Of a DNA stretch of 64,000 bases, positions 6,058 to 59,946 are shown piece by piece. The number at the start of each line of letters is the position of its first letter. Position 1 is the stretch's first letter. A model generated the notes under the pieces. It was not told the origin of the DNA. It saw only the letters and a list, made by a program, of their open reading frames with translations, and did no database searches. The position numbers and the translations under genes are program-made. The stretch comes from Isosphaera sp. (GTDB taxonomy: Bacteria > Planctomycetota > Planctomycetia > Gemmatales > Gemmataceae), in the NCBI GenBank assembly GCA_013822345.1, contig PNKH01000004.1:1-64000 (forward strand), in the 5' to 3' direction.

Positions 6058-8298
6058 TCAGTTCTTCGGGCGGAACACGTCGGCCTGGTCGTCGGCGATC
6101 TGGCGGAGCTTGTCCTGGAGCTTCTGCTTGGCCTCGTCCCGGGCCTTCAGGGCCGCGTACGCGTCCGCCTCGGTCACCACGATCTTCCGCACCGCCGTCT
6201 TGGTGTACCCGGCCGGGCGGTCCGGGTCCGGCTTCCCGTCCGGGCCCGGCAGCTTGTCGAACACCTCGACGTACACCTCGACCGTGTCCCCGATCTCGAT
6301 CGGCCGGTTGACCAGCACGGTCCGGTCCCCGACCCGCTCGGGCACCTTCTTCAACAGCCCGGACACCTCGAAGTTCCGCCGCCCGCCGGCCCCCAACTCC
6401 CCCGGCTCGTCCCGCGGGTTCCGCGACGGGAGCGGGTAGAACTCGACGTTCACCTTGTTCCGGTCGGGCCGCGGGACGCCCCGGAACGAGTCGAGGAACA
6501 GGCCCAACTCGGGGACGAACGGGGGCGGGTCCTTCTCCTTCGGGTCGCGGGAGAACCGGGTCAGCGGGAGGCGGTCGAAGATGAGCAACTCCGGGTCCTT
6601 CGCCGGGTGGTCGATGGGCGCCTCCGTCCCGTCCGGCAACTTCTTCTTCGGGTACGCGGCGAAGTCGACGCCCCGGGGGATGACCCGGTACCGGATGTTG
6701 GCGGCCCGCACCCCGACCTCCGACCGGGCGGCGAACACCACCTGGATCAGCCCGTCCGCGGTCAGGGCCATGTCCCACTCGTAGTCCTTCGGGTTCCCCT
6801 GCCCGTCGACCACCGCCGGGTCCGGGTTCCGGGTCGACTCCGGCTTGAACTCGACCGCCGGCGGCCGGTCCTCCCACATCCGGACGTTCCGCCGGATCTC
6901 CACCGGGTTGCGGAACCCCAGGTCGTCCTCCAGCAGCAGCCGGTACCCGACCGTCCGCGGGGTGGCCGGGAAGACGAACGCCGCCCGCTTCCGGTTCGGG
7001 TCGATCTCGCCCGGGTCGATCGGGTCCCGGGCCCGCTCCTCGGTCACCCCCGGCCGCTTCGTCGGCACCCGCTCGATCGGCACCAGTTTGGCCGCCCTCA
7101 CCGGCTTGTTGAACCGGGCGTCGACGATCACCTTCGACCCCGGCAGGGCGTCGACCACCTCGCCGCGGTCCCACCCGCCGGCCCGGCGGACGAACGGCTG
7201 GCCCTTCCGCGGCCCGTCCGGGACCCGGCCGAGGAAGTCCGGCAGGACCTGCTCGGCGGTCAGCGGCGGGTCGCGCGGGTCGTCCGCGCCGAGCTGCGGC
7301 GGGGCCTCGAACCGGACCCGCCCGGGCTCCCTCGTCCGCCCGTCCCCGAGCCGGGCCTGGTACTTGAAGTCGAGCGACGCCGGCGGGAGCTTGACCGAGA
7401 AGAACGCGGTCGGGTTGCCGTCGGCGTCCGGCTCGTTGGTCAGGGTGTAGTACTCCTCCGGCTCGTCCTCGAAGACCGGGTTCCCGTCCTGGTCCGTCGC
7501 CTGGCTGCCGTTCTTCAGGACCGGGCGGCTGGAGATCGGGACGACCCGGAGGGTGCCGGTGGCCGACGGACTGTACTCCCCGGACGCCTCGAACCGGACG
7601 ACCACCTCGGTCCCGGTCGGGTGGACCGGGGCCGTCCGGTCGGCGAGCTGGGTGCGGCGCGGGATCTCGGCCGGGAGCAGCGCCTGCCGCTTCAGCAGAA
7701 CCCCGGCCAGGCCCGGGTTCACGGCGAGGAACAGCCCCCACAGGAGCAGGACCGGGACGAGGACCGCGGCCGCGTACCCGGCCCGGCGGTACTCGACCAG
7801 GGCCATCACGTCGTGGTCGGCGGCGATCTCGCCGGCCTCCCGGGTGACCTCCCGGATCAGCGGCTGGGACATGCCCCGGGTGTCGGCGGTCGGGCGGTTC
7901 AGTTGCAGGGCGGTGACGAGCCGGTGGTCGAACACTGGGAATGCCTGCTCGGCCCGGGACGCGAAGTCGTCGACCGGCGGGGTCCGCCGCCACGGCCGGA
8001 CGAGGAGGAGGTACGCGAGGAACCCGGCCAGGGCGAGCTGGCCGAACGTCATGAGCACCCGGAGCCCGAACGGCGTCTCGCCGACCGACAGCGGGTCGGA
8101 CGGGGCGAACACCCGGGTCCGCCGCATCTGCCGCCGCCACCACTCGGACCCGGAGTACCGGTCGAACACCCAGTCGACGAGGCAGGCGAAGGCGAGGACG
8201 GTGCCGGCGACCGCGACCAGGCGGGCGGCGCCCCACAGGAGGAGGACGACCCGCTCCCGCGAGCGCCACCGGTCGAGCTGGCGGAGGACCGATTTCAT
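6058..8298 (-). CDS. large membrane protein of MoxR/VWA cluster (DUF4175-like)
   Basis: A 746-residue protein with three membrane helices near the N-terminus (about 17-44, 80-100 and 173-196). A long extracytoplasmic region of beta-rich, Pro/Arg/Asp-rich sequence follows, and the protein ends in a short helix. The arrangement resembles the DUF4175-type proteins found beside VWA proteins in MoxR clusters, but the assignment rests on layout rather than a diagnostic motif. AGGA lies 7 bases before the ATG. It follows the second VWA gene after a 327-base gap holding a complex palindrome. It probably works in the envelope with the VWA proteins. Confidence 0.65.
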   Translation of the reverse strand: MKSVLRQLDRWRSRERVVLLLWGAARLVAVAGTVLAFACLVDWVFDRYSGSEWWRRQMRRTRVFAPSDPLSVGETPFGLRVLMTFGQLALAGFLAYLLLVRPWRRTPPVDDFASRAEQAFPVFDHRLVTALQLNRPTADTRGMSQPLIREVTREAGEIAADHDVMALVEYRRAGYAAAVLVPVLLLWGLFLAVNPGLAGVLLKRQALLPAEIPRRTQLADRTAPVHPTGTEVVVRFEASGEYSPSATGTLRVVPISSRPVLKNGSQATDQDGNPVFEDEPEEYYTLTNEPDADGNPTAFFSVKLPPASLDFKYQARLGDGRTREPGRVRFEAPPQLGADDPRDPPLTAEQVLPDFLGRVPDGPRKGQPFVRRAGGWDRGEVVDALPGSKVIVDARFNKPVRAAKLVPIERVPTKRPGVTEERARDPIDPGEIDPNRKRAAFVFPATPRTVGYRLLLEDDLGFRNPVEIRRNVRMWEDRPPAVEFKPESTRNPDPAVVDGQGNPKDYEWDMALTADGLIQVVFAARSEVGVRAANIRYRVIPRGVDFAAYPKKKLPDGTEAPIDHPAKDPELLIFDRLPLTRFSRDPKEKDPPPFVPELGLFLDSFRGVPRPDRNKVNVEFYPLPSRNPRDEPGELGAGGRRNFEVSGLLKKVPERVGDRTVLVNRPIEIGDTVEVYVEVFDKLPGPDGKPDPDRPAGYTKTAVRKIVVTEADAYAALKARDEAKQKLQDKLRQIADDQADVFRPKN

Positions 8299-8400
8299 CT
8301 TGAGTTCCTGCGCTCGTTGGCGCCTCGCCGGGGGTCGATCGAGTCCGCGTCCGCAACCGCCGCGGCCGGGCCGGGGGTCGCCGCCGGCCGCCTCCTCAGG

Positions 8401-8590
8401 TGGCGCCCCTCACCCGGCCCCGACCGGGTCGGGGCCGACCTCTCCCCGGCGGGGAGAGGTGGGGGCCGCCGTGCCCCTCGACAGCTCCCCGGGTCGGCGA
8501 CGTTTCGAGGGGCCGCACCACCCCCACCTCTCCCCGCCGGGGAGAGGTCGCCGGCCGGCGCTCCGCCGGGCGGCGGGTGAGGGGCCGCCA
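8401..8590. repeat. PAL-H composite palindrome filling a 327-base gap
   Basis: The gap 8299-8625 between the second VWA gene and the membrane-protein gene holds this element and nothing else I recognise. Outer arms 8401-8415 and 8576-8590 pair with one bulge. Inside are a GGCCCCGACC/GTCGGGGCC hairpin and two copies of a CCTCTCCCC...GGGGAGAGG hairpin (near 8439-8459 and 8527-8548). A central CCCCTCGA/TCGAGGGG pair also occurs. It begins about 36 bases after the VWA stop. Confidence 0.75.
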
Positions 8591-8625
8591 CGCACCGAGA
8601 CGGCCCGCGGCCGACCCCGACCCGG

Positions 8626-11229
8626 TCAGCTCAGCCCGTTGAACTTCCGCAGCACCCACTCGACGGTCAGCAGCACGATCAGGGCGATCATCGCCCACTC
8701 GTTCCACAGCAGGGTCTCGGCCCGGGCGGTCTGCGGCACCGCCTGCGGCTTCACCTCGGCCGGCAGCCGGTGCAGCGTCTCCTCCCGGTAGAACCCGGCG
8801 TCGGCGTCCGCCCCGCGGGAGTCCCGGGTGAGCTTCCGCAGGGCCGGCTCGTCCATCGGCCCGGGGGCCAGCTCGTGGGTGTCCGGGTACGTCACCGGGA
8901 AGTTCAGCACCGCCAGGCTCTTGTTCTTCGGGTCGACCGTCAGCCGGAACTGCCCGGCCCTGTTGTACGCCAGGGTGGCGACGTACTCCCCGGCCACCCC
9001 CGGCACCTTCCGGAAGGTGACCGGGACCGACCGGTCCTTGTCGTCCGGGCCGGCGTCCAGCCGCTCCAGCGTCCCCTCCACCTCGTCCGACCCGAGCGGC
9101 TGGTAGTCGGCGTTGAACGCCCGCAGGTACACCTCCCCGGCCGTCCCGACGGTCGGGGCCGGGGTGTTCGACGACACCTGGGTCTGCTTGGTCCCGACGA
9201 TCCGCGGGATGCCGGCGGTGTACACCGCCTGGGTCCAGAACCGGCCGAAGTACTTCTCCTGGGTGTTGAACCGCCACCGCCAGGTGTCGTCGAACCCGAC
9301 GAACAGGACGTACCCCTTGCCGAACGTGTGCCCGGCCAGGAGCGGCATCGGCTTGTCCTCCGGGGCCGGGGTGCGGGCCGTCGGGTGGGACAGGAACACG
9401 TCCGCCGCCGGCTTCGTCCGGACCACCGGGTAGTGCCAGTAGAACGGCTTGAGCTGCTTCGGGTCCTGCAGCGCCGGGGGCGGGCCGGGCTTGCCCCACA
9501 GGTCGGCGTTCTCGACCACGTCGTCCTCCAGGGTGACGATCTGGGTGCGGGCCGACGCCGGGGCCAGGACCGGGACGAACCCGACCGGGTTGTCCAGCGC
9601 CTGGACCGGGAACCGGACCGGCTCGACCTCGACCGGCAGGACGTCGGCGATCGGGCTGGTCTCGGCCGCCCCCTTGGCGGTCGCCCACTCGGCCGGGCCG
9701 TGCCACCGCCCGGCGACGTGGATCAGCCCCCCGCCCTCGGTCACGAACTCCTTGATCACCTCCTGGTGCGGCCGGGTGAAGTACTTCCCGGGCACGTCCC
9801 CCAGGATCAGCAGGTCGAAGTCGAACAGGGTCTTGCGGAACTCGTCCTTGTCCATGTTCAGGACCCCGTCCACCTCCTTCGAGAAGTCGACCATCCACGG
9901 CGGGCCGGACCGCATCGCCGCCTTGTCCCCCTCGGTCAGGTAGAACTTCGCGTCCACCCGCCGGTCCCGCAGCAGGGCCCGCTGGAGGAACTTGAAGTCG
10001 TAACGCGGCAGCCCGTCGACCACCAGCACCTTCAGCTTCCGGTTCACCACCTGGGCCGGGCGGGAGACGGTGCTGGACAGGGCCTCGGCCCCGGAGGTGA
10101 TCGTCACCGTCGCGCTGTACTCCTGCTTCTTCGACTCCGCGTCGTCCTTCGTCGGGACGAACTTGACCACGGTCGCGAACGTCCGCCCGGCCCGCACCTC
10201 CTCCGGGGCCAGGGAGAACGACTCCTTCTTCGTCGCCACCTCCCGGTCCCCGTACCGGACGACGATCTCGGCCGTCCCGGCCGGCACCCCCTTGACCGTG
10301 TACCGGACCGGGATGGCGGCCGTGTCGTCGACGAACAGGGTGTTCGGCACGTCCACGTCGGCCCCGGCCCGGGACACCCCGGGGGTGCCGGCCGGGGCGG
10401 CCGCCGCGGTCGCCCCGCCGAACGCCGCCTGGAGTTGGCCGACGGTCGTCGCCCCGACCCCGTACACGTAGACCGGGATGTTCCGCCGGTAGCACTCCCG
10501 GGCCAGGTCGTCCAGGCTCTTCGGGCCGCCGTTCTCCCGCCCGTCGGTGACCACCACCAGCGCCGCCGGGGCGTCCGTGTCGTCCCGGTTCAGCAGCTCG
10601 AACCCGGCCGCCGCCAGGGCGGTCCGCGGCTCCTTCGCCTCCAGCCCCCTCAGCCACCCGTCGGACCCGGCGTCCCGCCCGGTCCGCCGGTCCCCGAACG
10701 TGTACACCTCCAGCGGGCCGACCGCCTTGAGCCGGTTCAGGATGTCGAACCGCGGGTTGGTCAGGGTCGCCCGGGCGATCTCGACCCGCTTCGCCTTCTC
10801 GGCCGGCAGGAGCTGGTCCCGGGGGACCAGCGACGACACGTTCTCGGCCGGCAGCCCGCCGATCGGGAGGAGCCCGAACGCGATCGCCGCCCGGGCCTGG
10901 TCGTCGTTCCCCGGGCGGGGGTCGACCGCGTCCATGCTCTGGGACACGTCGACCAGGACGACGACCGGGCGGAGCTTCTCGGTCGACTCGTCGGACACCA
11001 AGACCGGGCGGATCAGGAGGAAGGCGACGGCGGCGACGATCGCGACCCGGACGGCGGCCATCGCGACGCGAGCCCCGACCGGGATCCGCCCGGCCTCCCG
11101 GACGTACAGGTAGACCACCGCGGCGACGGCGAGGATGCCGAGGATGAGCGCGGCGACCGGCCACAGGGCGCCGCCGCGGCCGAAGTCGAGGCCGGCGAAC
11201 AGGGGTGCGAACGCGGACGCCGTGTGCAT
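8626..11229 (-). CDS. VWA membrane protein with glutamine-amidotransferase-like domain
   Basis: An 867-residue protein. Two N-terminal membrane helices (about 22-43 and 58-75) precede a von Willebrand A domain whose MIDAS motif is DVSQS at 94-98. A long Ig-like and amidotransferase-like extracytoplasmic region follows (around LKVLVVDGLPRYDFKFL and EVIKEFVTEGGGLIHVAG). A C-terminal membrane helix ends LLTVEWVLRKFNGLS. The start is placed at the ATG at 11229, directly before the hydrophobic segment. A longer frame upstream only reads through the PAL-F palindrome. By family knowledge these proteins are partners of MoxR AAA+ ATPases at the membrane. Metal-dependent ligand binding is inferred from the intact MIDAS. 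Confidence 0.8.
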   Translation of the reverse strand: MHTASAFAPLFAGLDFGRGGALWPVAALILGILAVAAVVYLYVREAGRIPVGARVAMAAVRVAIVAAVAFLLIRPVLVSDESTEKLRPVVVLVDVSQSMDAVDPRPGNDDQARAAIAFGLLPIGGLPAENVSSLVPRDQLLPAEKAKRVEIARATLTNPRFDILNRLKAVGPLEVYTFGDRRTGRDAGSDGWLRGLEAKEPRTALAAAGFELLNRDDTDAPAALVVVTDGRENGGPKSLDDLARECYRRNIPVYVYGVGATTVGQLQAAFGGATAAAAPAGTPGVSRAGADVDVPNTLFVDDTAAIPVRYTVKGVPAGTAEIVVRYGDREVATKKESFSLAPEEVRAGRTFATVVKFVPTKDDAESKKQEYSATVTITSGAEALSSTVSRPAQVVNRKLKVLVVDGLPRYDFKFLQRALLRDRRVDAKFYLTEGDKAAMRSGPPWMVDFSKEVDGVLNMDKDEFRKTLFDFDLLILGDVPGKYFTRPHQEVIKEFVTEGGGLIHVAGRWHGPAEWATAKGAAETSPIADVLPVEVEPVRFPVQALDNPVGFVPVLAPASARTQIVTLEDDVVENADLWGKPGPPPALQDPKQLKPFYWHYPVVRTKPAADVFLSHPTARTPAPEDKPMPLLAGHTFGKGYVLFVGFDDTWRWRFNTQEKYFGRFWTQAVYTAGIPRIVGTKQTQVSSNTPAPTVGTAGEVYLRAFNADYQPLGSDEVEGTLERLDAGPDDKDRSVPVTFRKVPGVAGEYVATLAYNRAGQFRLTVDPKNKSLAVLNFPVTYPDTHELAPGPMDEPALRKLTRDSRGADADAGFYREETLHRLPAEVKPQAVPQTARAETLLWNEWAMIALIVLLTVEWVLRKFNGLS

Positions 11230-11274
11230 GTCGTGGGACTCGCGTGAAACCCGTCGGTCCGAACCCGCCCCGCC

Positions 11275-11336
11275 GTCCGAGCCGGAAGCGTCAGCGACGG
11301 GCAAACGCGGCCGTCGCCGACGCTTCCGGCTCGGAC
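11275..11336. repeat. PAL-F palindrome, 26-bp arms with one mismatch
   Basis: Arms 11275-11300 and 11311-11336 share the PAL-F core GTCCGAGCCGGAAGCGT and pair except at one position. It starts 11 bases after the stop of the BatA/VWA gene on the minus strand. Confidence 0.85.
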
Positions 11337-14110: not shown

Positions 14111-14656
14111 TCACCTCCTGGGGGCGGGCTCCACCTTCACCCGCGTCAGCACCCAGCCGGGGTGGTCCGGGTCGTCGAGCGTCCGCGGCCGCGGCTCCGT
14201 CGTGTCGCCCACCCGCACCCGGACGGTCGACCGGCCGTCGAACGCGTACACCCCGTGCAGTTTCGGGATCCGGCCCACCAGGTTCGCCACGTCGACCGGG
14301 TCGAGGTCGATTTCCTTCGGGTCGGCGGCCTCGTTCAGGGTGATCCGGTACGCCCGCCCGGCGACGCCCGCGGCCGACGACTCCCACCGGTCCCCGGCGA
14401 CGGTCACGACGTTCGGGGTGGTCCGCCCGCCGACCGCGATCTGCCAGTCGCCGCGGAACCGCTCCAGGTCGGTCCGCGGCTCCGGCTCGTGGATCAGGAA
14501 GAACCAGGCCGCGAACCCGGCGGCCGCGCCCAGTACGACGACCGCGGCGGGGAGGGCCAACCGGCGGGCTCGCGGCGAGCGGGGGGCGTGAGCCCCCTGA
14601 TGCGTGGACGGATCAGGGGGCTCACGCCCCCCGCTCGCCGGGGAAGCGTCCGTCAT
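14111..14656 (-). CDS. membrane-anchored TIGR03067-like protein with palindrome-encoded linker
   Basis: A 181-residue protein. Residues 1-31 are hydrophilic, a single membrane helix spans about 33-55, and the extracytoplasmic part opens with LERFRGDWQIAVGG, the same motif as in the adjacent TIGR03067-like protein. The ATG overlaps the DUF58 stop as ATGA (14653-14656). Residues about 6-28, rich in Pro, Gly, Ser and Arg, are encoded by a perfect 29-bp-arm palindrome. The palindrome seems to have entered the frame just before the membrane helix, where a flexible tail is tolerated. No function is known. Confidence 0.65.
   Translation of the reverse strand: MTDASPASGGREPPDPSTHQGAHAPRSPRARRLALPAAVVVLGAAAGFAAWFFLIHEPEPRTDLERFRGDWQIAVGGRTTPNVVTVAGDRWESSAAGVAGRAYRITLNEAADPKEIDLDPVDVANLVGRIPKLHGVYAFDGRSTVRVRVGDTTEPRPRTLDDPDHPGWVLTRVKVEPAPRR
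14573..14640. repeat. PAL-M palindrome inside a reading frame, perfect 29-bp arms
   Basis: Arms 14573-14601 and 14612-14640 pair perfectly around a 10-nt loop. The arm contains GGGGGGCGTGAGCCCCCTGA. It lies entirely within codons 6-28 of the membrane-anchored TIGR03067-like gene and brings no stop in that frame. Confidence 0.9.
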
Positions 14657-15543
14657 CGGCGGCCCGTCTGCAGGCGGCGGACGAGGTACTCGGCCAGGGC
14701 GTTGGCCAGCGGCCGGTCGGTCGGCATCTGGACGTAGTCGACCCCGCTCCCGTCGCACCCGCGGCGGAGGTCCTCCAGGTACTTGCCGACGATCCGCAGG
14801 TACGCCGGGCGGAGCAGGTGCGGGCGGGTCATCAGCTCCTCGAACCCCTCCAGCCCGATGAACCGGACGTTCCCGTCGAGCGGGAACCGGACCTCGTCCG
14901 GGTGCAGCACGTGGAACAGGACCACCTCGTGCCCGCGGAACCGGGCGTGCCGCAGCCCGGCCAGGGTCGGCTCGATGTCCTCCAGGCAGTCGGAGATGAG
15001 CACCACGATGCCGCGGCGGCCGGTCCGGTCGGCGACCTGGTCGAGGACCGGGCCGATGGAGGTCTTCTCCCGCGGCTGGGCGTCCTCCAGGATGTGGGTG
15101 ATGGCGTGGATGTGGCCGAGGTTGCTGCTGGTCGGCAGCTCGGCCACCACCTCGGTGTTGAACACCCGCAGCCCGGCCGAGTCGCGCTGGCGGATGACCA
15201 TGTACGCCAGGGACGCGGTCAGGAGCTTGGCGTACTCGAGCTTGTTCGTCGCCCCGCTCCCGTACCGCATCGAGTTCGACGCGTCGAGCAGCAGGTGGCA
15301 GGCGAAGTTCGTCTCCTGCTCGTACTGCTTGATGGTGTACCGCTCGCTCCGGCCGTAGCTCTTCCAGTCGATGTGCCGGATGTCGTCGCCCGGGACGTAC
15401 TCGCGGTGCTGGACGAACTCGACCGAGAACCCCTTGTACGGGCTCTTGTGGTCGCCGACCCGCAGCCCCTCGACGAGCTGCCGGGCCTTCAGCCCGAGGG
15501 CCTCGGCCCGGGCCAGGACATCGGGCTTCAAGTAGGTGGGCAT
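14653..15543 (-). CDS. DUF58 protein (MoxR partner)
   Basis: A 296-residue cytoplasmic protein of the DUF58 family, a degenerate VWA-like fold usually encoded after moxR. The signature QHREYVPGDDIRHIDWKSY spans 45-63, and a MIDAS-like DASNS lies at 87-91. It is short and lacks the N-terminal membrane helices of the other DUF58 protein at 50527. The start MPTYLKPD is chosen because upstream frame is only palindrome. It follows MoxR after a 108-base gap filled by a cloverleaf palindrome, and its stop overlaps the next start (ATGA). Confidence 0.85.
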   Translation of the reverse strand: MPTYLKPDVLARAEALGLKARQLVEGLRVGDHKSPYKGFSVEFVQHREYVPGDDIRHIDWKSYGRSERYTIKQYEQETNFACHLLLDASNSMRYGSGATNKLEYAKLLTASLAYMVIRQRDSAGLRVFNTEVVAELPTSSNLGHIHAITHILEDAQPREKTSIGPVLDQVADRTGRRGIVVLISDCLEDIEPTLAGLRHARFRGHEVVLFHVLHPDEVRFPLDGNVRFIGLEGFEELMTRPHLLRPAYLRIVGKYLEDLRRGCDGSGVDYVQMPTDRPLANALAEYLVRRLQTGRR

Positions 15544-15552
15544 GGTGATCCC

Positions 15553-15647
15553 GTAGGGTGGGCCGAGCCCGGCGCCTCGCCGGGCGAGTCCCACCAGGCG
15601 CCTCACGGTGGGACTCGGCCGCGAAGCGCGGCCTCGGCCCACCCTAC
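15553..15647. repeat. PAL-I four-way-junction (cloverleaf) palindrome
   Basis: An outer stem of 15 bp (15553-15567 with 15633-15647) closes three consecutive perfect hairpins: 15568-15584 (7 bp), 15585-15617 (11 bp) and 15618-15632 (6 bp). No base is left unpaired at the junction. It starts 5 bases after the MoxR stop and ends 9 bases before the DUF58 start. Confidence 0.85.
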
Positions 15648-15651
15648 CGAC

Positions 15652-16671
15652 TCAGGCCGCCACGGCCTTCGCCGCCGTCTTGACCAGCTCGCGGATCACC
15701 TGGTCGATGGTCACGCCCTCGCTCTGGGCGGCGAAGTTCAGGATCAGCCGGTGCCGCAGGATCGGGGTGGCGACCGCCACCACGTCGTCCCCGGCGACGT
15801 GGTTACTGCCGCGGAGCAGGGCGTGGGCCTTGGCCGCCAGGATCAGGTTCATGCTCGCCCGCGGGCCGGCGCCCCAGGTCAGCCACTTCGACACGAAGTC
15901 GGCCGCCTCCGGGGTGCCGGGCCGCGAGAGGCGGGTGATCCGCTTGGCGAACTGGAACACCTTGTCCGACACCGGCACCCGGCGGACGATCTGCTGCAGC
16001 CCGAGGATGTCCTCCCCGGTCAGCACCGGGGAGACGGTGGTCTTGGTGTCGGAGGTGCCGATCCGCATGATCTGCTCCTCCTCGGCGTCGGTCGGGTAGT
16101 CGACCTTGATGAGGAAGAGGAACCGGTCGAGCTGGGCCTCGGGGAGCGGGTAGGTCCCTTCCTGCTCGATCGGGTTCTGGGTGGCCAGGACGAAGAACGG
16201 CGACTTCATCGGGTGGTCGGTCCCGCCGATCGAGCACTTCCGCTCCTGCATCGCCTCCAGCAGGGCGGCCTGGGTCTTCGGCGGGGTGCGGTTGATCTCG
16301 TCGGCCAGGACGATGTTGGCGAAGATCGGCCCGGGCAGGAACTTGAACATCCGCTCCCGGGTGACCGGGTCGTCCTGGATGACCTCGCTCCCGGTGATGT
16401 CCGACGGCATCAGGTCGGGGGTGAACTGGACCCGCTTGAAGGTGAGGGCGAGGGCCTGGGCGAGGGTGCTGACCATGAGCGTCTTGGCCAGGCCCGGGAC
16501 GCCCATGAGCAGGGCGTGGGACCGGCAGAAGATCGCCATCAGCAGCTCGTCGACCACCTTCTCCTGCCCGATGATGACCTTGCCGATCTCCTTCCGCAGC
16601 TTCTGGTGCGCGGCCCGGAGCTTCTGGATCATCGCCACGTCGTTCTCGGCGGTCGGGCTGGTCGTGCTCAT
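15652..16671 (-). CDS. MoxR-family AAA+ ATPase
   Basis: A 339-residue AAA+ ATPase. Walker A is GVPGLAKT at 57-64, Walker B is VLADEINR at 121-128, sensor 1 lies in ATQNPIEQEG from 163, and LDRF is at 181-184. The MoxR family remodels or activates VWA-domain partners, and here DUF58 and two VWA proteins follow on the same strand. The start MSTTSPTAEND is preferred to an upstream in-frame ATG at 16749, which would add a poorly conserved 26-residue leader. It is the first gene of the cluster, after a 260-base gap that holds an AT-richer promoter-like patch. Confidence 0.9.
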   Translation of the reverse strand: MSTTSPTAENDVAMIQKLRAAHQKLRKEIGKVIIGQEKVVDELLMAIFCRSHALLMGVPGLAKTLMVSTLAQALALTFKRVQFTPDLMPSDITGSEVIQDDPVTRERMFKFLPGPIFANIVLADEINRTPPKTQAALLEAMQERKCSIGGTDHPMKSPFFVLATQNPIEQEGTYPLPEAQLDRFLFLIKVDYPTDAEEEQIMRIGTSDTKTTVSPVLTGEDILGLQQIVRRVPVSDKVFQFAKRITRLSRPGTPEAADFVSKWLTWGAGPRASMNLILAAKAHALLRGSNHVAGDDVVAVATPILRHRLILNFAAQSEGVTIDQVIRELVKTAAKAVAA

Positions 16672-16736
16672 GCGTGTCTCGGGGTGCTGGGCGGGCGCGT
16701 ACCGTTCCGGGGATTCACCGGGGGTGGGTGATAACC

Positions 16737-16767
16737 AATCTAAACACACGGGGCGGGGGGAGGCAAA
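16737..16767 (-). promoter_or_regulatory. possible sigma-70 promoter for the MoxR cluster
   Basis: On the minus strand TTGCCT (16761-16766) and TAGATT (16737-16742) are 18 bases apart in one of the few AT-richer patches of this area, about 65 bases before the MoxR ATG. Matches to consensus are partial, so this is only a candidate. Confidence 0.25.
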
Positions 16768-31614: not shown

Positions 31615-31714
31615 CCCAGGCCGTTGGCCTGGGCTGAGGGAGATCGGCCCTTCGGGCCTGAAGAGTCTGAGCCCCGAAGGGGCGGCCTCCCTCAGCCCAG
31701 GCCAACGGCCTGGG
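31615..31714. repeat. PAL-C palindrome, perfect 28-bp arms
   Basis: Arms 31615-31642 and 31687-31714 pair perfectly and contain CCCAGGCCGTTGGCCTGGGC. The loop holds two further hairpins at 31646-31658 and 31671-31683 (GCCCC-GAA-GGGGC). Like the PAL-C copy near 19130, it lies in a divergent promoter gap rather than after a stop codon. Confidence 0.9.
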
Positions 31715-38420: not shown

Positions 38421-38458
38421 CCTACCCCTCCCGTTCGTCCAGCGTGTCGAGCCAGGTC

Positions 38459-38569
38459 CGCCCGGGGTTGGCACCCCGGTCTATTCCCTCCCCACCCCTT
38501 CGGGGTTCAAGGCCGTCTTCAGCCCCGAAGGGGCGGCCAGGGAATAGACCGGGGTGTGAACCCCGGGCG
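38459..38569. repeat. PAL-D palindrome copy 1 between gapA and pgk
   Basis: Arms 38459-38489 and 38539-38569 pair except for a 2 by 2 internal mismatch and contain CACCCCGGTCTATTCCCT. The loop contains CCCCTTCGGGG (38495-38505) and GCCCCGAAGGGGC (38522-38534), which can pair with each other. A direct repeat GCGAACCCCGGGCGG follows to 38585. It ends 16 bases from the gapA stop. Confidence 0.85.
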
Positions 38570-38585
38570 GGCGAACCCCGGGCGG

Positions 38586-49352: not shown

Positions 49353-50336
49353 ATGCCCCCCGCCGACGTGGCCGGCACCGCCGGCCGGATCATCGCGAAC
49401 ATCGAGAAGGTGATCATCGGCAAGCGGCCGCAGGTGACGCTCGCGGTCGCGGCGTACTTCTCGGAGGGCCACATCCTGCTGGAGGACGTGCCGGGGGTGG
49501 CGAAGACGATGCTGGCGCGGGCGCTGGCCCGGAGCGTGGGCTGCACGTTCAAGCGGCTGCAGTGCACCCCCGACCTGCTGCCGACGGACGTGACCGGGGT
49601 GTCGGTGTTCAACCAGAAGACGGCCGAGTTCGAGTTCCGGCCCGGCCCGGTGTTCGCCCAGACGCTGCTGGCCGACGAGATCAACCGGGCGACCCCGCGG
49701 ACGCAGGCGGCGCTGCTGGAGGCGATGGCGGAGCGGCGGGTGAGCGCCGACGGCCAGACCTACGTGCTGAAGCCGCCGTTCCTGGTGGTGGCGACGCAGA
49801 ACCCGGTCGACCAGGAGGGGACGTTCCCGCTCCCGGAGGCGCAGCTCGACCGCTTCCTCGTTCGGCTGAGCCTCGGGTATCCGAGCCTGGAGGAAGAGGG
49901 GAAGATGCTGGCCAGGCTGCAGAAGGGGCACCCGATCGAGGACCTGAAGCCGGTGGTGAGTGCGGACGACGTGCTGGCGTGTCAGGAGGCGATCCGTGGG
50001 GTCCACGTCGACGAGAAGGTGACGCGCTACATCCTGGAGATCGTGCACGCCAGCCGGGGGCACGAGGACGTGGCGCTCGGCGGCAGCCCACGGGCGTCGC
50101 TGGCGCTGTTCCGGACGGCGCAGGCGCTGGCGGCGGTCGCCGGCCGGGACTTCGCCCTGCCGGACGACGTGAAGCGGATGGCGCAGCCGGTGCTCGCCCA
50201 CCGGCTGATCCTGAAGCCGGAGAGCCGGCTGCGGAAGCGGACCGCGGCGGCGGTGGTGAAGGACCTGGTCGGGGACGCCCGGGTGCCGGTCACGGACCGG
50301 CAGAAGGCGGAGAGTGAGGACATGTTCGACCGGTAG
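49353..50336 (+). CDS. MoxR-family AAA+ ATPase (second copy)
   Basis: A 327-residue ATPase. EDVPGVAKT is Walker A near 50, LLADEINR is Walker B, ATQNPVDQEGTFPLPEAQLDRF contains sensor 1, and a C-terminal lid domain ends at KAESEDMFDR. It is closer to the common MoxR type than the paralogue at 15652 and is paired with a membrane DUF58 protein downstream. No VWA proteins follow. It is divergent from the adaptor gene. Confidence 0.9.
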   Translation: MPPADVAGTAGRIIANIEKVIIGKRPQVTLAVAAYFSEGHILLEDVPGVAKTMLARALARSVGCTFKRLQCTPDLLPTDVTGVSVFNQKTAEFEFRPGPVFAQTLLADEINRATPRTQAALLEAMAERRVSADGQTYVLKPPFLVVATQNPVDQEGTFPLPEAQLDRFLVRLSLGYPSLEEEGKMLARLQKGHPIEDLKPVVSADDVLACQEAIRGVHVDEKVTRYILEIVHASRGHEDVALGGSPRASLALFRTAQALAAVAGRDFALPDDVKRMAQPVLAHRLILKPESRLRKRTAAAVVKDLVGDARVPVTDRQKAESEDMFDR

Positions 50337-50352
50337 ACGGCGGCGGTTCTGG

Positions 50353-50512
50353 AGCCCCGAAGGGGCGGCGAGGGAATAGCCCGGGGTGTGAACCCCGGGC
50401 GGTCAGGGCGGCCCGGGCGGGGTGGGCGACGTGGTCGGGGTTCCGTGTCGGTGGTGCCCGGGGTTCCGCTGCGCTCCACCCCGGGCTATTCCCTCGCCGC
50501 CCCTTCGGGGCT
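50353..50512. repeat. PAL-D palindrome copy 2, perfect 36-bp arms
   Basis: Arms 50353-50388 and 50477-50512 pair perfectly and contain AGCCCCGAAGGGGCGG and AGGGAATAGCCCGGGGTG. A second stem follows inside (GAACCCCGGGC 50390-50400 with 50456-50466). It starts 17 bases after the MoxR stop and ends 15 bases before the DUF58 ATG. Confidence 0.9.
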
Positions 50513-50526
50513 ACCGGACGGGAACG

Positions 50527-51888
50527 ATGCTCTGGTTCCTCGCCATCGCCCTGCTGCTCGGCCTCGCCCTCGCTCTGCAGGCGGGGCTGGTCGCGTTCGC
50601 CGGGTACGTCCTCCTCGGCGTGTTCGTCGTCTCCCGCTACCTCGCCCGCCGGTGGGTCCACGACCTCCGCGCCGAGCGCCACTGCGACGCCACCCCGCGC
50701 GAGGTCGGCGAATCGACCGAGGTCCGCGTCACGCTGTCCAACGCCGGCGGCCTGCCGATCCTCTGGGTGCTCGTCGAAGACCTCGTCCCCGACCTGTCCC
50801 TGCGGCAGAAGCCGGCCCGGCTGTCCGTCAAGGGGAAGCGGTTGCAGGTCGTCAGCCTCGGCGGCCGCGGCACCCGCACCGTCCGCTACTCCGTCACCTT
50901 CCTGATGCGCGGGTACTACCCCCTCGGCCCGACCCTCCTCGAAACCGGCGACGTGTTCGGCCTCCACCGCCGGCACCGCGTCGTCGGCAGGCCGGTCTAC
51001 GTCATGGTCTACCCGAAGGTGGTGCCCCTGCCGAAGTACGACTTCGCCTCGGAACGGCCGCTCGGCGAGATCCGCCTACAGAACCGGCTGTTCGAGGACC
51101 CGACCCGCACCGCCGGCGTCCGCGAGTACCAGTTCGGCGACCCGCTCCAGCGCGTCCACTGGAAGGTCACCGCTCGGACCGGCGTCCTCCACTGCCGGGT
51201 GTACGAGCCGACCAGCCTCGCCGGCGCCACCCTCCTGCTCGACTTCCACCGCGACGGGTACCACAGCCGCGGCGAACCGCACCGGTCCGACCTCGCCGTC
51301 ACCGCCGCCGCCAGCCTCGCCTACGCCGTGTCCGTCCTGAACCAGCAACTCGGCCTCGCCAGCAACGGCCGCGACGCCGCCGACCGCATCCGGGCCGAGT
51401 CGTTGGAGGAGCAGGCCCAGCCCGAAGACGGCTACGAGACGCGCGACGCGGCCCGCGACCGGTTCGACCTCCGCGAGGAGAACGACCGCCTCCGGCCGGT
51501 GGTCGTCGACACCCGCCGCGGGTTCGACCAGTTCCAGAAGGTCCGCGAGGCGCTCGCCCGGCTCGAACTCACCGACGGCGTCGGGTTCGCCAGGCTCGCG
51601 CTGGAGACGGCCCCGCGGATGCCGCGCGACGCGACCGTCATCGCCGTCTTGCCGCGGGTGCCGGTCGACAGCGCGGTCGCCCTCGGCACCCTACGGCGGC
51701 AGGGGTTCGCGGTGACGGCGATCCTGATCGGGCTGGACGAGTCGCAGAAGTTGGAGGCGCACGGCCGGCTGCTCGCCGAGGCGGTCCGCGACATCCGGTA
51801 CGTGAACACCGAGGAGGAGTTGGCCAACCTCGGCGGGGCGGCCGCCGCCGGGATGGCGATGTACACCGTCGACGTGCCGCTGGCGTGA
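50527..51888 (+). CDS. membrane DUF58 protein (MoxR partner)
   Basis: A 453-residue protein. Two N-terminal membrane helices (LWFLAIALLLGLALALQAGL and AFAGYVLLGVFVV) precede a beta-rich domain and then the DUF58 signature REYQFGDPLQRVHWKVTART near 198-217. The C-terminal half carries a VWA-like fold. It is the partner of the MoxR gene just upstream. Unlike the DUF58 gene at 14653 it has membrane helices and is not followed by Bat genes. The ATG at 50527 is preferred because upstream frame is palindrome. Confidence 0.85.
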   Translation: MLWFLAIALLLGLALALQAGLVAFAGYVLLGVFVVSRYLARRWVHDLRAERHCDATPREVGESTEVRVTLSNAGGLPILWVLVEDLVPDLSLRQKPARLSVKGKRLQVVSLGGRGTRTVRYSVTFLMRGYYPLGPTLLETGDVFGLHRRHRVVGRPVYVMVYPKVVPLPKYDFASERPLGEIRLQNRLFEDPTRTAGVREYQFGDPLQRVHWKVTARTGVLHCRVYEPTSLAGATLLLDFHRDGYHSRGEPHRSDLAVTAAASLAYAVSVLNQQLGLASNGRDAADRIRAESLEEQAQPEDGYETRDAARDRFDLREENDRLRPVVVDTRRGFDQFQKVREALARLELTDGVGFARLALETAPRMPRDATVIAVLPRVPVDSAVALGTLRRQGFAVTAILIGLDESQKLEAHGRLLAEAVRDIRYVNTEEELANLGGAAAAGMAMYTVDVPLA

Positions 51889-59799: not shown

Positions 59800-59879
59800 G
59801 GCCGGCCTCACACGGTGGGGAAGGGTCGTGCGGGTCGTTGTACGGAGTAGGGCGGCAGAGGCCGTGCCGAAAGCCGGCC

Positions 59880-59941
59880 GGGAGGGCGAGGCTCCCGCCG
59901 AGCCGTGTCGCTCCGGCTCGGCGGGAGCCTCGCCCTCCCGG
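59880..59941. repeat. PAL-E palindrome copy 3, perfect 26-bp arms
   Basis: Arms 59880-59905 and 59916-59941. Compared with the other PAL-E copies, T to C in the left arm is matched by A to G in the right arm. It starts 6 bases after the response-regulator stop on the minus strand. Confidence 0.9.
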
Positions 59942-59946
59942 CCGGG

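Follow-up and report, generated by a model that had tools for sequence, protein, structure and literature searches.

The window analyzed here, a stretch of 64,000 nt, carries two pairs of genes that encode a MoxR-type AAA ATPase and a DUF58 protein (Table 1). In the first pair, the MoxR stop codon TGA (15652-15654, reverse strand) lies 4 nt ahead of a 95-nt inverted structure, and the DUF58 ATG follows 9 nt after it. The whole gap measures 108 nt, and would measure 13 nt without the element. RNA folding of 15543-15657 gave a minimum free energy of -84.2 kcal/mol (z -7.8, with 0 of 200 shuffles as good), in which a closing stem of 14-15 bp and a first hairpin of 7-8 bp share a boundary movable by one pair, followed by hairpins of about 11 and 6-7 bp. 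Apart from this one-pair shift between stem and first hairpin, the coordinates, length and four-way pairing given in the preliminary description are correct. At the Rfam gathering score, 15553-15647 had no match, and the only two matches of the window, both to Acido-Lenti-1, lie elsewhere. RNAalifold covariation gave little information: double changes were found in 3 of the 23 predicted pairs, all in the third hairpin, with nearly invariant stems otherwise.

Table 1. Features of the two MoxR-DUF58 gene pairs and of the elements in their gaps
Feature	Position	Strand	Description
Whole element	15553..15647		Two GTAG-tagged REP units forming an inverted (head-head) dimer, or REPIN
REP unit 1	15553..15595	+	GTAG, GGTGGG stem arm, inner hairpin CCCGGCG-cct-CGCCGGG, CCCACC arm; from the sequence and the 41-copy alignment
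Inter-unit spacer	15596..15606		Sequence varies from copy to copy
REP unit 2, inverted	15607..15647	-	Other inner hairpin, GCCGCG-aag-CGCGGC; end CTAC
MoxR-type AAA ATPase, upstream gene	15652..16749	-	AAA_3, E 2.8e-61; start uncertain
DUF58 gene, downstream	14653..15543	-	E 1.1e-42; ATG start at 15543
Second MoxR-type AAA ATPase gene	49353..50336	+	AAA_3, E 7.1e-63
Second DUF58 gene	50527..51888	+	DUF58, E 1.9e-13
Second-pair palindrome	50353..50512		Other dispersed repeat family; left arm is Rfam Acido-Lenti-1 (RF01687)

Pattern search revealed that the element belongs to a dispersed family with 125 exact two-ended copies genome-wide, compared to none for the backward (reversed) control. DNA similarity search in the same genome gave at least 92 matches at 40 distinct places, with 40 of 359 candidates scored, and a covariance model built from 41 copies matched all 150 scored candidates (at least 150 matches, both strands counted, from 27058 first-look candidates). 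The ends are sharp: in 39 copies compared by eye together with their flanks, likeness stops at the positions corresponding to 15553 and 15647, beyond which the flanking sequences seem to have nothing in common.

Each copy consists of two inverted REP units of ~42 nt, with GTAG outside, arranged around a spacer of 6-23 nt (mostly 10-13). The commonest unit reads GTAG-GGTGGG-CCGAG-(palindromic core)-CGAGT-CCCACC. The spacers are highly diverse, with 97 distinct sequences among 111 read, and the cores comprise 76 distinct sequences that are palindromic in all those read. GTAG stands at 225 of the 238 ends of 119 copies, a share that is partly built in, as these copies were selected by a near-GTNGGGTGGG (near-GTNG) pattern; the copies picked up by plain similarity show the same ends. 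Half units of the dimer are also present in the genome.

A single long hairpin is the predicted fold of 100 of the 119 copies as RNA and 91 as DNA, whereas the cloverleaf is the minimum-energy fold of 16 and 24, respectively. The “perfect cloverleaf” of the preliminary description therefore holds for the copy at 15553-15647 but was rejected as a trait of the family, being the fold of a minority. This copy branches because its two units carry different cores; in units with a shared core, the cores are able to pair with each other. By the terminology of PMC3733652 (Di Nocera et al. 2013), this copy is a heterodimer, and, on the predicted folds, the cloverleaf is incidental to the family. In three copies (L035, L050 and L064) an exchanged arm makes the unit's own hairpin perfect and disrupts the central stem. 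This suggests that the individual units, rather than the cloverleaf, are what is preserved.

The 119 copies are sited predominantly at gene 3' ends. Co-directional genes border 46 of them, convergent genes 42 and divergent genes three; another 17 fall within a called ORF and 11 at the edge of a contig or stretch, so that 88 of the 91 classified intergenic copies are co-directional or convergent. Among 130 gene 3' ends beside an element, 44 take their stop from the TAG of its GTAG, 52 lie at 0-15 nt, 14 at 16-50 nt and 18 further away, and two overlap otherwise, distances that carry some error since the genes were called by a home-made finder. The 17 copies inside called ORFs, including L033, L034, L065 and L067 among the first 41, may be translated or may mark wrong starts.

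The covariance model matched 10 of 41 genomes, all within the 19 of the same genus, under stricter filters by which weak matches are lost. At all ten loci read in relatives, the ends are GTAGGG with other inner arms; because the ends are shared and the inner arms differ, species seem, on these sequences, to have their own subfamilies.

These features are those of GTAG-tagged REPs. As described by Di Nocera et al. 2013 (PMC3733652), this superfamily, reported in Planctomycetes and with R. baltica named (section 5), forms head-head dimers with GTAG at the outer ends, stem-loops whose palindromic inner loop is set off by unpaired bases, and inverted homo- and heterodimers. Its members lie between co-directional or convergent genes, at the same 3'-end position (<20 bp), and their TAG is supplied as stop codon to flanking ORFs. 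However, the head-head spacers described there are usually conserved and most dimer spacers span 20-100 bp, whereas those of the present family are short and variable. The words GGTGGG and GGGTG are absent from the main text of that paper, to which the comparison is confined, as the consensus sequences of the 24 families stand in its Figure 1. Compared to the REPIN outlined by Bertels and Rainey 2011 (PMC3116915), the element shares the inverted REP doublet, the less conserved spacer, the hairpin fold, the many copies and the occurrence of single units, but its lineage is a planctomycete, and no RAYT gene flanked by this REP was found at the Y1 loci examined (see below). It further shares GTAG, an adjoining CT in a third of copies and a mismatched stem like that of the E. 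coli REP with the E. coli and Stenotrophomonas REPtrons as presented in PMC8266576, and differs from them in being known from sequence, with the enzyme class deduced. Altogether, we regard it as a new family of a known kind, GTAG REP dimers, although it may coincide with one of the 24 families of PMC3733652.

The surroundings of the copies lend indirect support to mobility, through a CT bias and through a lack of target-site duplications. CT is found at positions -3/-2 outside the element at 40 of 235 ends, against a background of 4% (p 9e-15, for a position tested after PMC8266576 had been consulted, with 11 positions of five dinucleotides compared). At least one end has it in 39 of 116 elements and both ends in one; the copy at 15553-15647 has none. 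By analogy, this enrichment would be as expected for a REP transposase: according to PMC8266576, E. coli TnpA-REP requires GTAG and cuts at a CT beside the REP, and the Stenotrophomonas and Marinomonas enzymes also cut at CT. GTAG plus CT is nevertheless not a strict signature, because those two enzymes tolerate more change in GTAG and that of Marinomonas cuts at CA too (PMC8266576).

The genome has five matches over the cut-off to the Y1 (IS200-like) transposase family PF01797. An exact search for GTAGGGTG, which misses degenerate copies, found it beside the gene at none of 51 Y1 loci, five from this genome and 46 from eight relatives, over 1.5-2.5 kb (less at contig ends); its sole occurrence at these loci is within a transposase reading frame. 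No REP-like repeat was seen next to C49, one of the five Y1 genes of this genome. With no RAYT flanked by its REP at these loci of nine genomes, as judged by the exact word, the family is left without assignment to a REPtron. Among 26 Y1 loci scanned in element-free genomes, one (L320) has GTAGGGTG once. Y1 genes occur in eight of eight element-bearing genomes compared and in six of nine element-free genomes (the ninth element-bearing relative, G018, being left out), so that co-occurrence singles out no enzyme. Two other loci are candidate REPtrons of other families. At L029 (G000:C14:8501-8653), a GTGGGGCAGG/GTGGGGCAGGCATTCCTGCCTGCC-type repeat flanks one of the Y1 genes of this genome and has also invaded the 5' end of that gene, and at L204 (G004:C143, about 2000-2900) a RAYT-like gene has GTAG-tagged palindromes (GTAGCCGCGAC...) on both sides, in the latter case a candidate GTAG REPtron with another REP sequence. 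As to timing, recently moved units should share their spacers, and the rarity of shared ones (97 distinct of 111) counts against recent movement.

The second MoxR-DUF58 gap (50337-50526) also holds a large palindrome of a different family, as the preliminary description had stated, and the Rfam search placed its left arm in Acido-Lenti-1. This family, listed as an sRNA, matches the window at 50353-50399 and 31670-31714, and 38458-38570 resembles it by DNA likeness only. The palindrome at 50340-50520 has at least 108 DNA matches in the genome (40 of 416 candidates scored), often as inverted pairs by eye. With loci picked partly by eye, Acido-Lenti-1 matches of E <= 0.01 were found at 10 of 20 Y1 loci compared to 2 of 17 control loci; at the gathering score, one of 35 Y1 loci has matches (L083, with five copies around the gene), and both control matches are above that score. 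Class 3 Y1 enzymes are reported in Planctomycetes and Acidobacteria in PMC6006769, and Acido-Lenti-1 here may be the REP of such enzymes rather than an sRNA gene.

The preliminary description had called for a comparison of MoxR-DUF58 gaps in related genomes, and had held that relatives lacking any structure there, with equal expression of both genes, would speak against a role for it. Among 15 of 18 same-genus relatives searched, 14 have a close copy of pair 1 (L209-L222) and one, G007, has paralogues only. By an automated criterion, 12 of these 14 gaps hold a palindrome or an inverted-arm cassette; G011 has an imperfect palindrome below the threshold, and G012 has a bare gap of 17 nt, which supplies the structural half of that counter-evidence. 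The GTAGGGTG element itself is in none of the 14 gaps. By eye, one kind is common to G008 and G013, arms of the GTTCCAAGTTCC type are seen in G004, G006 and G010, and cassettes of the GTTTCGCGTT type in G014 and G015; the others differ. Cassettes in the gaps of the genus and of wider relatives encode four-helix-bundle proteins (TIGR02436) and a GxxExxY protein (TIGR04256), and the protein of another has a sub-threshold match to a REP transposase (NF047646, E 2.7e-9).

Inserts of about 440-680 bp are seen in the MoxR-DUF58 gaps of L113/L210, L122/L221, L125, L134, L140, L145, L151, L160, L161 and L186. By eye, inverted arms composed of short, degenerate tandem repeats enclose a small ORF in most of them, and this ORF encodes a four-helix-bundle protein (the three scanned are TIGR02436, others are similar by eye), a REP-transposase-like protein (L151) or a GxxExxY protein (L186). 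Short ORF-less palindromes with similar arms (L116, L118 and L119) may be solo forms of these inserts. Gaps of 400 nt or more in L163, L172 and L183 show no clear arms or known ORF by eye.

Occupancy by the automated criterion was compared over 15 conserved junctions of the genus. Of 15 genomes, the window included, 13 have an occupied pair 1 gap, against 50 of 113 cases at the 13 other junctions (p 0.002), and pair 2 is occupied in 6 of 10 (p 0.5 against the other junctions). Such occupancy is not a chance outcome, because 69 of all 138 co-directional cases are occupied compared to 2-4 of 138 in dinucleotide shuffles of the same gaps; the criterion scored the gap of L272 as empty although an imperfect palindrome is visible there. 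Elsewhere in the same gene series, the junction from 8626-11304 to 6058-8298 (8299-8625 in the window) has palindromes in 10 of 12 genus genomes. Among named Gemmataceae-like loci plus the window, an inverted repeat is found in 19 of 33 MoxR-DUF58 gaps and 25 of 112 control gaps (p 2e-4). This second test covers 52 of 80 DUF58 loci, the best 80 of 438, plus the window; 15 loci with no MoxR upstream were excluded from the list of gaps, and 12 rows were set aside because their inserts measured at least 400 nt. Its 33 focal gaps were chosen by position, one of them (L150, counted positive) lacking a MoxR match upstream, and it sees the 160-nt second palindrome of the window only in part (z -0.4). 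At 59874-59945, between two co-directional called genes, the window has a further inverted repeat of about 31 bp with a 10-nt loop by eye (region z -10.2).

The preliminary description had proposed that a structure at this junction is useful. Palindromes do recur there, in both pairs and in both tests. That the structure was built for the purpose is not supported, given the 125 exact copies, the minority status of the cloverleaf, the occupancy of 50 of 113 cases elsewhere and pair 2, which does not differ from other junctions. Part of the contrast between pair 1 and its controls may come from overlapping or translationally coupled controls that are unable to accept inserts. Judging from the sequences compared, the pattern would mainly reflect tolerance of insertion right after a stop codon, selection for a stem being less likely.

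Three other explanations were weighed against a REP dimer. In one, the element is a cis-acting RNA structure of the MoxR-DUF58 operon that would determine how much of each protein is made relative to the other, its repeat origin being secondary. The excess of occupied MoxR-DUF58 gaps, at pair 1 in the genus and among the named loci plus the window, argues for it, as does a stem that begins 4 nt past the MoxR stop, given that E. coli REPs less than 16 nt from a stop are reported to cause ribosome stalling and reduce translation (PMC12306157). However, a neighbouring junction is filled in 10 of 12 genomes, pair 2 is unexceptional and the gap of G012 is bare; moreover, the element has 125 copies, and it was the striking look of this junction that led to its being picked for the test. 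We consider this explanation improbable. Another is an intrinsic transcription terminator or attenuator, to which a very stable GC-rich intergenic stem and the 42 of 119 copies between convergent genes would be suited. A consensus scan of 15300-15900 that required a T-run found no terminator-like site, that is, no stem-loop followed by a T-run, on either strand. An intrinsic terminator was consequently rejected, and this class of explanation appears scarcely credible.

With its sharply bounded inverted ends and its many copies, the element could also be a MITE, a non-autonomous element derived from a DDE transposon that has inverted ends. Such an origin is very improbable, as the GTAG ends, the double-hairpin make-up and the CT bias fit REPs, and no target-site duplication of 2-9 bp rises above shuffles (for length 3, two observed compared to 1.9 shuffled); a MITE with duplications was rejected on the latter ground.

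We thus conclude that 15553-15647 very probably belongs to a species-level family, present in many copies, of GTAG-tagged REP dimers (REPIN, or “head-head” dimer) in a Gemmata-type planctomycete, spread by a putative Y1 route. The family would have moved as folded single-stranded DNA, with a transposase of the REP-type Y1 class (RAYT / TnpA-REP) presumably recognizing GTAG and the hairpin and cutting at CT. The element would have landed in a MoxR-DUF58 gap of ~13 nt and left both genes intact. It looks like a copy of a dispersed, probably mobile repeat and like no special control device for MoxR and DUF58, and no promoter pattern was found in 15300-15900. Once transcribed, the element is probably a passive stem immediately past the MoxR stop. 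Intergenic REPs stabilize upstream mRNA, for instance in malE-malF, and by analogy with E. coli REPs this stem may shield the upstream message or slow ribosomes there.

With the stem closed, 13 unpaired nt separate the MoxR stop from the DUF58 start, compared to 12-20 nt in the bare gaps of both pairs (n=5), a closeness that might preserve re-initiation. One could extend this into a broader conjecture, which we hold to be rather unlikely: uncoupled junctions in Gemmata-type gene series, with MoxR-DUF58 foremost, would be filled repeatedly and independently by palindromes of different families. These would be retained because, when fully paired, an insert folds out of the way and the stop stays as close to the start as it was before, so that re-initiation is kept and the upstream message is at the same time protected or slowed by the stem. 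If so, any palindrome would serve, whatever its sequence.

For the REP dimer reading, the consequences reach beyond this junction. The conserved co-directional junctions examined around both pairs in this genus are filled by palindromes half the time, so a search for repeats is advisable before any single striking structure in such genomes is given a local function. REPs of this phylum have little description in the literature found, and among 12 papers listed of 165 from the open-licence literature, no title joins Gemmata with REPIN or RAYT. What began as an RNA story at one locus becomes a genome-wide repeat family with a sequence, a copy number and a siting rule.
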